From assembly GCA_945861435.1 (NCBI GenBank), contig CAMAUX010000026.1, positions 1-64,000 of the forward strand: DNA of 64,000 nt, in the 5' to 3' direction. Of this stretch, positions 1 to 19,483 are shown piece after piece. The DNA is from Chthoniobacter flavus. GTDB lineage: Bacteria; Verrucomicrobiota; Verrucomicrobiia; Chthoniobacterales; Chthoniobacteraceae. The position numbers and the translations under genes are program-made. Under the pieces are notes generated by a model, which saw only the letters and a program-made list of their open reading frames with translations, was not told the origin of the DNA and made no database searches. Position 1 is the stretch's first letter. Every line of letters begins with the position of its first letter.

Positions 1-102
1 GCGAACCTGCTCGTCGAGCATCCCGACTGCGACCACGACTTCCCCGACGCGATGCGGGAGAAGGCCTACAAGCTGTTTGAGACACACCTGCGCGCGCCGT
101 AG
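1..102 (+). CDS. Partial alpha/beta hydrolase, C-terminal end only
   Basis: The window opens inside this gene; frame 1 is open from base 1 to a TAG stop at 100-102, giving the last 33 residues. The tail contains HPDCDHDFP followed by a charged helix ending THLRAP. A Cys-x-His-Asp-Phe-Pro element just before a terminal helix is what I associate with the catalytic-His loop of dienelactone-hydrolase or acetyl-xylan-esterase-like enzymes, so the His would complete the Ser-Asp-His triad. The rest of the protein lies outside the window, so the family call rests on this short tail only. Confidence 0.4.
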   Translation, partial: ANLLVEHPDCDHDFPDAMREKAYKLFETHLRAP

Positions 103-143
103 CGGGTATAGCTGCCGAGGTAAGGAGGAGGGACGCGTCCGCT

Positions 144-229
144 TCAAGCAGGCAAACGCAGGAAGCGCATCCACGAGTCGCCGTGCTTCATCACCTTGCG
201 TTCCTCCCAGACCGCCGGCACTTCCAGCG
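144..229 (-). pseudogene. C-terminal fragment of an unidentified protein
   Basis: Read on the minus strand from the edge of repeat copy 1, one frame is open to a stop at 144 and gives a protein-like tail including VPAVWEERKVMKHGDSWM. It has no start of its own because everything upstream is replaced by the 60-bp repeat. I do not recognise the family. It converges with the hydrolase tail ending at 102, which would suit two genes ending tail to tail. Confidence 0.3.
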
Positions 230-289
230 TTAACGCGCCGCGGCAATGCAGCCTTCCCCCCCCCCGTACGTACGTAAAAAGGAAATTCC
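230..289. repeat. 60-bp repeat, copy 1
   Basis: The unit runs from TTAACGCGCCGCGG through a run of 10 C, the palindrome CGTACGTACG and AAAAAGGAAATTCC. It matches positions 1048-1106 except for one base in the length of the C run. Both sides abut broken genes: the C-terminal fragment at 144-229 and the RuvC-like gene at 290-493. Confidence 0.9.
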
Positions 290-493
290 TATCAGTGCCG
301 TTGAGCGCAGGTTCATCTTTTCCCGGTACATGGGCAGTTCCTCGATGAAACACACCGATTCCGGGCACACCAACACCCGCAAGAGCCGATCCAAGTCCGC
401 CACCGTGTCCGGCATCGGCACGGCGTGGACGCTGCCATCGGTGTCCCGGTAGGCGATCCCTCCGCTTTTGCCCGGGTCAATGGCTATGGTCAT
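290..493 (-). pseudogene. RuvC-like resolvase, 3' end lost
   Basis: The start ATG is at 491-493. The protein begins MTIAIDPGKSGGIAYRD, the first beta strand of the RNase H-like fold with the catalytic Asp of RuvC-type Holliday junction nucleases, and later has CFIEELPMY with a likely second acidic residue. Only about 68 native residues remain, against roughly 150-180 in phage RuvC-like enzymes. The frame then runs into repeat copy 1 and stops inside it. It starts 15 bases after the stop of the lysozyme gene on the same strand, so the two look like part of a prophage operon. The missing C-terminal half carries the remaining catalytic acids, so it is probably inactive. Confidence 0.55.
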
Positions 494-507
494 CCTCCTG
501 TATCGGC

Positions 508-1047
508 TCAGGCTATTCCCGAGGTTGTCTTGAGCTTTTCCACACGGTTGAGGCAGCCCTGCAGAAACCGCTTCTGACTCGGGTCCACCTGTGCCAGACG
601 CCGGTAAAAAGGTTCGCGCCTGCTCACCAGCCGTTCGGCCACTGCAAGGGGCGCTTCCCGCGTCACCAAAGAGCGTACGGCCTCCAGTGTTTTTGGACCG
701 ATCCGACCGTCGGGTTCCGCACCCACTGAGCGCTGCGAGAACCTCGCCGCCTGAGTCACACCTGTTTTCACGCAGGCGTCAAAGTGGACGAGACTCACCG
801 GCCACGGCAGACGGTCACAGTCGCCTTCCAGCCAGTATGCGCCCCGGTAGATTTCCTCGACCTTAATCTTGAGGATGTGGCGTACATCAGCTGGACGAAG
901 GCCCTCGGCCTTCCGGTAAATGTCGTACACCCGCTGAAGGATGCCCTTGTTGGTGGCACCGCCCCGATCCACCGGATCGTTGGTGTAGCCGCCCTCCACC
1001 TCCAGGACAAAGTCCAGTGCCCGCTCAAAGGGGGTCGAGGACCCCTT
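508..1047 (-). pseudogene. Phage-type GH108 lysozyme, start lost
   Basis: The frame encodes FERALDFVLEVEGGY then TNDPVDRGGATNKGI, the signature of glycoside hydrolase family 108 N-acetylmuramidases, with the catalytic Glu expected in the EGGY element. A C-terminal peptidoglycan-binding-like part includes GAEPDGRIGPKTLEAV. The reading frame is intact from about 1040 to the stop at 508. The first few codons and start site are replaced by repeat copy 2 at 1048, so there is no native start or ribosome site. Such enzymes release phage by cutting the glycan strand. With the RuvC-like gene it represents a prophage fragment. Confidence 0.7.
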
Positions 1048-1106
1048 TTAACGCGCCGCGGCAATGCAGCCTTCCCCCCCCCGTACGTACGTAAAAAGGA
1101 AATTCC
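1048..1106. repeat. 60-bp repeat, copy 2 (59 bp)
   Basis: Same unit and orientation as 230-289, with 9 rather than 10 C in the homopolymer. It separates the 5'-truncated lysozyme (508-1047) from the 3'-truncated IS110 transposase (1107-1453). No third copy was seen in the window. Confidence 0.9.
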
Positions 1107-1453
1107 AGACGTTGGCATAACGCTGCGGCATCGAGCCGGTCGTTCTTCACGCCTTTGCCCCGTTCATCCCAGTCCTGAGGTTGCACCACGTAGTTCTTGA
1201 TGCCGAGTTCCTCGAACCGGCGGTGCAGATGGAATCCGAAGGCGCCAGCTTCATAACAGGTCACCACGTTGCGGGTGAGCTTCTGTTGTTTAACTACAAA
1301 AAGCATGAGCTCGTCGTAAGTCATTTTCTGGACGGTTTGCGGAGTCGCCCCGTCGATCTGACGGCTTACCCAGTAATATTTGGCGTGGGCGTCGATGCCG
1401 AGTTTGATCGAGTCGTAGGAGGCGGTTGATTGGGATGGATTGATGGTTGTCAT
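1107..1453 (-). mobile_element. IS110-family transposase, N-terminal fragment
   Basis: The start ATG is at 1451-1453. The sequence IKLGIDAHAKYYWVSR, then VVTCYEAGAFGFHLHRRF and GVKNDRLDAAAL, matches the N-terminal DEDD (RuvC-like) domain of IS110 transposases, including the Asp, Glu and Asp expected of the catalytic site. About 115 of the usual 330-400 residues remain; the C-terminal Tnp20 domain with its serine is missing because the frame enters repeat copy 2. The bases upstream of the start (1454-1600) could retain the noncoding end of the element, where IS110 elements carry their bridge RNA, but I cannot define its limit. Confidence 0.75.
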
Positions 1454-1604
1454 GGCCTTTAAGATCGCGGGATCTCGCGCCGCTCGACAACCTCATGTCA
1501 TCTAGTAGTTTTGAATCCATTTCCAGCCTTTCGCCGAAGGCTCTCTTTAAAACCGGTTCTCACCAACGAGCCCGGATCAACAAACAAAAAAAATCACCAA
1601 CAGC

Positions 1605-2123
1605 ATGCAATCATTGTTCAAAACACTCGCGGTCGCCCTCAGTTTTGCCGCCTTCTCTGGCGCATCTCTGAATGCCGCCGAAGAATATCGTTGAGACCGC
1701 GGTCAGCGCCGGTTCCTTCAAGACCCTGACCGCCGCCCTCGGCGCCGCTGGTCTGGTGGATGCCCTCAAGAAAGTGGCCCGTTCACCGTTTTCGCGCCCA
1801 CCGACGGAGCCTTTGCGAAGCTTCCGCCTGGAACGGTCGAGAATCTGCTCGAGCCGGAGAACAAGGCGATGCTCACCGACATCCTGACCTATCACGTTGT
1901 CAGCGGTAACGTGCCTTCCGGGACCGCCATCAAGCTCACCGAGGCCACCGCGCTCAATAACAAGAAGATCAAGCTGGAAGCAAAGGAAGGCGCTCTCTTT
2001 CTGAACACGGCGAAGGAGACCACCGCTGACGTGAAGTGCTCCAACGGAGTGATTCACATCATCGACGACGTCCTCATGCCGCCCGCAACTGACAACAAGG
2101 GCGCAAGTGTCGAACTGAAATAG
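1605..2123 (+). pseudogene. Secreted fasciclin-domain protein, two compensating frameshifts
   Basis: The ATG at 1605 starts a good signal peptide (MQSLFKTLAVALSFAAFSG, then ASLNAAE). The fasciclin (FAS1) domain follows but in three pieces: after about 1684 the homologous reading moves to another frame (IVETAVSAGSFKTLTAAL), and near 1775 it moves back (PFTVFAPTDGAFAKL, ILTYHVVSGNV, then the H2-like IHIIDDVLMP). One extra A in GAAGAATAT and one missing G in AAAGTGGCCC explain both changes, and the first frame otherwise stops at 1692. Restored, it would be a 172-residue single FAS1 protein, typical of small secreted fasciclins. Either a recent pseudogene or two homopolymer sequencing errors. Confidence 0.8.
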
Positions 2124-19353: not shown

Positions 19354-19426
19354 AAAAATCGAGCCCAAAAATCGAGCCCATTCCGTGGGTCATTTTAATT
19401 GTCGCCGAAGGGAATTCTAATTGTCG
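19354..19426. mobile_element. Possible solo end of an IS21-like element
   Basis: Two adjacent copies of AAAAATCGAGCCC (19354-19366, 19367-19379) are followed by two copies of a TAATTGTCG-containing motif (about 19393-19404 and 19414-19426) and TTGACCA. Short repeated blocks with CGACAATTA near a terminus are characteristic of IS21-family ends, where they bind the transposase. No istA or istB gene is present, so at most one end remains. It lies about 60 bases before the HsdM fragment. Confidence 0.35.
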
Positions 19427-19483
19427 TTGACCACGCCCCTGCATGAGTTGGAGTTGCGTACGGTGCAGGGCGCCGTCGAGTGA

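Follow-up and report, generated by a model that had tools for sequence, protein, structure and literature searches.

The window analyzed here, that is, the first 64 kb (64,000 nucleotides) of contig 26 of a genome assembled in 105 contigs, carries two copies of a clade-specific, non-coding interspersed element of ~64 bp, the right end of which appears, from sequence comparison, to be the landing site of one IS110-family insertion sequence (IS). We hold it probable that this interspersed element serves as the landing site of an IS of the IS1111-like type. For copy 2 in the window, the best reading is that of an element interrupted by an IS110-family IS, with the left part of the element retained and a remnant of the IS still present.

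Repeat copies in the window and the DNA around them

The preliminary description of this DNA had reported two copies of a repeat in the same orientation with C runs of different length, and this proved correct. The 60-mer TTAACGCGCCGCGGCAATGCAGCCTTCCCCCCCCCCGTACGTACGTAAAAAGGAAATTCC lies at positions 230 to 289 and a 59-mer in the same orientation at positions 1048 to 1106, the sole difference being a run of 10 C in copy 1 and 9 C in copy 2. Judged against other copies, copy 1 continues to position 296 (CTATCAGT), and comparison with these copies and the profile delimit a complete element on the forward strand (230 to 296), which reads TTAACGCG...GGAAATTC-CT-ATCAGT. Copy 2, also on the forward strand, comprises by sequence comparison the left part of the element (1048 to 1106), followed by the IS remnant. 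Across the copies, the full element of ~64 bp has the form TTAAC...GGAAATTC-CT-ATCAGT, with flanks that switch abruptly at TTAAC on the left and past CAGT on the right. In an alignment of 28 sequences, the left half falls into at least two types (GCGGCAATGCAGCC and GCAATGCTGATTCGGCC), and the right half is conserved and common to the copies, its end having the consensus AAAAAG[GC]AAATTC-CT-ATCAGT. Two irregular copies were observed: at L079 6806-6875, two element halves overlap in opposite orientation as a chimeric fold-back copy, and at L165 (G007 contig 257) the left half is partly duplicated next to a B-type repeat.

Such B-type repeats belong to one of two related short families, A (TTAACGCTCCCGCG...GTGAAAAGCAAATTC) and B (...GGGGTCAAAAAGCAATTCTCCC), each of which has one end in common with the element, i.e., either its start (TTAAC) or an end like AAAAAGCAATTC. 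Repeats of families A and B occur at L045 6018-6105 and 6264-6323 and in loci L167, L060, and L094. A flank of the family-A type precedes the IS right end at L010 370.

Between the two copies, two genes lie on the reverse strand. The first (297 to 493), truncated where copy 1 ends on its right, retains by homology the ~66 initial codons of a phage RuvC-like Holliday junction resolvase gene and is 91% identical to a complete gene of genome G010. The second (508 to 1030) encodes a phage GH108 lysozyme of the endolysin family, of which residues 7 to 173 are 89% identical to a viral-contig gene; the start of this viral relative, MRGAD, stands before FERAL, and the window gene is without these five codons. 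Lysozyme and resolvase genes are also adjacent, in the same order, in G010 and G015, which argues for window 297-1030 being one contiguous phage fragment. For the resolvase fragment, viral contigs yielded no relative and phage records a single weak match; the full G010 resolvase protein had four matches. A 17-nt fold-back, GGGGTCGAGGACCCCTT, lies between the lysozyme gene and copy 2 (1031 to 1047) and is absent from the viral relative L172.

To the left of copy 1, a C-terminal fragment on the reverse strand (144 to 229) is possibly derived from a resolvase, as judged from its reading frame and alignment; it had no PHROGs hit. It aligned with residues 90 to 115 of the G010 resolvase, an alignment equaled by 0.2% of 1000 shuffles, and with three other resolvases at levels equaled by 46%, 31%, and 7% of 500 shuffles. 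We considered whether copy 1 had simply inserted into a single resolvase gene, of which the left fragment would then be the other part. Searches for the left flank of copy 1, for a region with one copy (15 genomes), and for a stretch with two copies (11 genomes) returned homologous genes or short matches and no contiguous empty site.

These comparisons modify two earlier statements, namely, that the flanking genes are cut precisely at the repeat and that those at copy 1 are unrelated. Precise cutting holds for the resolvase, since DNA homology to the resolvase genes of G010, G015, and G014 (loci L234, L235, and L236) breaks off at 297, at the border of copy 1. It does not hold for the lysozyme gene, which lacks ~5 start codons (relative to one viral homolog) and is separated from copy 2 by 17 nt, and the IS110 homology overlaps the end of the repeat by TCC. 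As for the genes at copy 1, the left fragment aligns to one resolvase and not clearly to the three others, so that "unrelated" is uncertain.

The insertion sequence at the right end of the element

The IS remnant follows copy 2 on the reverse strand (1107 to 1502) and holds the first ~115 transposase codons (start at 1453) together with the transposase-proximal end ...CCTCATGTCATC, as delimited by the NF033542 model and by comparison, the remainder of the IS being missing. IS110 homology begins at 1104, and the join in the window passes from GGAAATTCC to AGACG within the transposase; the equivalent on contig 32 of the same genome is ATCCAGACG, so that TCC is shared at the junction. The far IS end lies at 1502, with TAGTAGT next to it. 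The core CT occupies 1502-1503, and the end scan thus yields CT-AGTAGT on the forward strand (1502 to 1509), the first C of which is also counted in the IS; after CT, AGTAGT agrees with the right part of the target, ATCAGT, at 4 of 6 bases. Further to the right, a gene which we take to be fasciclin-like runs across several frames (1605 to 2123) and represents a pseudogene or a sequence error. Elsewhere in the window, 77 bases (19359 to 19435) are identical to L002 1708-1784, which adjoins the cut IS110 fragment on contig 32, and possibly mark where another mobile element ends.

The assignment to the IS110 family is based on NF033542, which matched the window fragment over positions 3 to 104 (4.1e-11) and the contig-32 fragment over positions 95 to 265 (1.3e-16), both scores being those of fragments and lying under the 140-bit cut-off for full-length proteins. 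PF02371 matched the contig-32 fragment, no IS110 model of Pfam matched the window fragment, and comparison of the latter with solved structures was without a relevant match. A transposase both full-length and intact was not identified at the transposase matches, where the frames reach 455 amino acids (running through an element), 310 (with a stop within the match), and 295.

In many loci, the IS has the same insertion point and the same orientation, mostly with CT at the junction. On contig 32, GCTATGAGGTTGGTCAAGC directly follows the element and precedes the C-terminal part of a related transposase on the opposite strand, interrupted by stops, and the same IS right end follows the element in seven more loci (L009, L079, L082, L085, L086, L092, and L094). 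The left ends are the better evidence because their loci were not chosen by the element: 24 were read in 27 loci picked by the transposase alone, and the bases that follow are CT in 21, CTAT in 15, CTATC in 14, and CTATCA in 10, three being without CT. One of the 24, L244 position 40, is probably a chance match. Among 13 distinct right-end matches (in the loci examined, viral ones excepted), 11 stand after AAAAG, with the cores CT (six), TT (three), and CG (two), and 7 after exactly AAAAGNNAATTC; the L010 match with its family-A type flank is among the 11. This right-end sample is biased, most loci having been found via the element and four (L241, L247, L248, and L254) via the transposase alone; in these four, the flank is exact in L248, degenerate in L247 and L254, and missing in L241. 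The matches in L097 and L241 look like chance, although L241 may alternatively be a true end elsewhere. Since the exact flank was seen in 7 of 13 cases, mostly in loci found via the element, we set our confidence in the proposed explanation lower. These exceptions among left and right ends aside, the fixed site and fixed orientation are those of the IS1111 type. Moreover, the element itself ends on the right in CT-ATCAGT, and the two IS flanks would thus rejoin into an element. The left part of the element, an IS in decay, and CT-ATCAGT occur together in locus L087 (4579 to 4190). In L248, the left and right ends of two IS copies were also observed head to tail, 27 bases apart (1830 to 1858).

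A long non-coding region lies downstream of the transposase gene (~400 bp in L002) and aligns in eight loci, being shorter at contig ends, and a subterminal inverted repeat, ATGAGGTTG, was found by eye close to both IS ends in L089 and L002. Such a layout, with a non-coding region after the transposase gene and the inverted repeat near both ends, is IS1111-like, and the junction of the corresponding IS circle would read CATGTCAT-CT-GCTATGAGG. We asked what this region shares with the target. In L085, it matches one or the other target strand 9 times over at least 6 bases, and 0.6% of 500 shuffles did so as often; the longest match has 9 bases (equaled by 2.6% of 500 shuffles), and the longest to the other target strand has 6 bases in L085 (91% of shuffles) and 8 in L002. 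These guide-like matches allow two readings of their order, one of which is opposite to that reported for IS1111, and they are suggestive only of an RNA guide to the target carried in the non-coding region. Targeting of terminator hairpins was rejected, as 56 left flanks had a mean of -8.7 kcal/mol versus -9.4 in 313 control windows.

We propose that, in the window, the IS inserted after GGAAATTC of copy 2, which would be the simplest account, and then decayed by internal deletion, leaving the transposase fragment against the left part of the element. Such decay was seen in L087 and is inferred for the window. Similar copies with and without the IS could then have become sites of homologous or IS-mediated rearrangement, which may have put pieces like the phage fragment between copies. 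The IS would explain part of the broken-gene pattern, and the left breakpoints at TTAAC are not accounted for by it. The earlier idea of a small mobile unit or recombination site thus survives in another form: the repeat is dispersed as a small unit, with a right end that apparently acts as a recombination target of an IS110-family element. The notion of one such unit joining phage DNA to IS DNA is at best half correct, as the IS most simply would have inserted into the repeat and then been mostly lost.

Distribution and spread of the element

A search of the source genome and its relatives, as the preliminary description had advised, was productive. It returned five matches in the source genome and, by BLAST with a 64-base consensus, matches in 12 of 213 genomes of the order, from two genera of one family, which excludes chance as an origin of the repeat. 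A sequence-only profile gave 118 matches at E <= 0.01 in 14 of 40 genomes of the family, spanning three of its nine genera, the third via a single weak match; as 132 candidates were scored per genome, these counts are lower bounds, with at least 52 copies in G011, at least 14 in G017, and at least 12 in G010. An exact 29-base search among named genomes returned eight stretches. They belong to three deposited genomes with the titles Chthoniobacteraceae bacterium, Akkermansia muciniphila, and Opitutus sp.; as all three are placed in one family, at least some of these titles cannot be right. A phage or plasmid home of the element was rejected, since phage and plasmid records gave no match and viral contigs contained no exact 24-mer.

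The arrangement of the copies bears on how they spread. In G011, 29 of 52 copies have a neighbor within 6 kb (7.7 expected); neighboring copies lie on the same strand in 25 of 33 pairs (p 0.005), and in 23 of 30 pairs at 6 kb or less with a duplicate locus left out. Gene context was read for 67 copies, genes being crudely defined as open frames of at least 150 codons. An upstream gene was present within 800 bp of 55 copies and co-oriented in 42 (p 0.0001), a downstream gene was present for 50 copies and co-oriented in 29 (not significant), and 8 copies lie inside an open frame; copies often have a stop codon on one side and a start codon on the other. In some arrays, the interval from one copy to the next is occupied by genes (e.g., L083 240-3338 and L080 1435-2331). 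A two-copy block is common to G004 and G011, which belong to two genera, at 90% identity, and terminates at one end within the second copy and at the other 109 bp outside the first. Moreover, a gene that is continuous in G011, presumably of GDSL type, is cut at the element in G010, and several genomes have one and the same left segment before the element and differ in their right flanks. The clustering, the strand bias, the gene context, the shared block, and the cut gene speak against a plain insertion of the element and fit either rearrangement between copies or cassette-like exchange, and we favor rearrangement because it needs no new enzyme.

Cassette-like exchange would make the element a non-integron recombination site, with one gene and one 64-bp site per unit shuffled by another enzyme. 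Integron attC sites, including the attC clusters that lack an integron, follow co-oriented genes and form clusters on the same strand. The element resembles attC in these respects and in length, and the filled arrays, the block boundary within an element, and the constant left segment with changing right flanks also speak for such units. Unlike attC, no inverted R and L boxes were seen by eye in the 28-sequence alignment. An integron integrase (TIGR02249) scored above the cut-off in 4 of 16 genomes (G003, G004, G005, and G014, with 0, 3, 3, and 1 element matches, respectively) and in none of the copy-rich ones (G011, G017, G010, and G008). Against it stand also the downstream genes without orientation bias and the shared block, which at its other end extends 109 bp beyond the first copy. 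We regard this reading as unlikely. More specifically, and quite improbably, the 64-bp elements could be the joints of a cassette system unlike integrons, in which gene-plus-site units in one orientation are exchanged between genomes by an RNA-guided IS110-family recombinase that recognizes the right end common to the element and the related families A and B.

A REP-type element, i.e., a palindromic repeat moved by a RAYT (Y1) transposase, would likewise be short, mostly intergenic, and typically 3' of a co-oriented gene, and Y1 transposases were found in 11 of 16 genomes. However, G011, with its 52 or more copies, G009, G013, G014, and G016 (incomplete genomes) had no Y1 match, and the element was not found beside a Y1 gene, nor flanking one, at any of the 30 loci fetched out of 45 Y1 matches. 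The secondary structure which the preliminary description had suggested looking for was not borne out: single-sequence folds, and hence a palindromic stem-loop, were no better than shuffles (z of -0.43 as RNA and 0.68 as DNA for the lower strand and 1.27 as RNA for the upper strand). The alignment of the lower strand folded with a z of -5.3 against column shuffles, a value that we do not count because these shuffles ignore dinucleotides. The prevalence of same-strand neighbors also differs from REPs in composite repeats, which alternate in orientation according to PMC2817692. A REP origin is thus very unlikely. A MITE with inverted ends was rejected, the ends TTAAC and ATCAGT not being inverted by eye.

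We give as little credit to a cis-acting promoter, leader, or 3' end signal that is under selection and spreads with its gene neighborhood. The frequent position between stop and start codons and the conserved right half would suit such a signal, but window 1-1700 and five element loci had no match in Rfam, the downstream genes are without orientation bias, and a phage gene is cut by copy 1.

An assembly artefact, in which a short repeat joins unrelated reads, had been considered from the outset and would suit the many copies close to contig ends, the start of the window at a contig end, and the 79 identical end bases of contigs 43 (L103 4564-4642) and 32 (L002 1-79), but it is extremely unlikely for the family, as the same sequence occurs in many contexts and in at least 12 genomes, including separately deposited ones, two of the five matches in the source genome are diverged copies (82 to 83% identity) within 45- and 50-kb contigs between genes complete by eye, and the element-IS arrangement recurs in G011. 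Contigs 43 and 32 may be neighbors.

Known repeat-targeting insertion sequences and significance

The proposed relationship has precedents. According to PMC1525189, REPs are targets of ISs (ISPpu9, ISPpu10, ISPsy8, and ISPa11), and several ISs insert at one identical point in every copy. PMC11187229 describes RNA guides in both the IS1111 and IS110 types, with ISPa11 in REPs and ISKpn4 in attC, and gives the long non-coding region after the transposase gene and the subterminal inverted repeats as features of the IS1111 type. Like the IS1111-type ISs on REPs or attC of that source (ISPa11, ISKpn4, and ISPst6), the IS in our loci has one insertion point and one orientation in a dispersed repeat, and, as in those ISs, an IS110-family transposase, a non-coding region after its gene, and subterminal inverted repeats. 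Unlike the targets of those ISs, the element is without a palindrome or REP tag and its host family is labeled verrucomicrobial, and the window IS is known from fragments, with no intact copy identified. GTAG repeats, a REP family, have been reported from a Verrucomicrobium, O. terrae, according to PMC3733652. The element resembles the GTAG and CGTC families, as presented there, in being short, mostly 3' of genes, and present in many copies, and differs in its ~64 bp without a stable hairpin, its ends TTAAC and CAGT, and the lack of a Y1 gene beside it in the loci fetched.

Among the papers listed by text searches, none described the repeat or such a repeat-IS pair in its title or abstract opening. 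Altogether, the comparisons argue for a real short repeat family, apparently new, that would be targeted by an IS110-family element, i.e., a relationship of a known kind in a setting that is new. The many natural junctions at which this IS110-family element was found allow its target to be read. Moreover, if the clustering in one orientation reflected a real exchange of units, the element would exemplify how RNA-guided recombinases shape the order of genes in nature.
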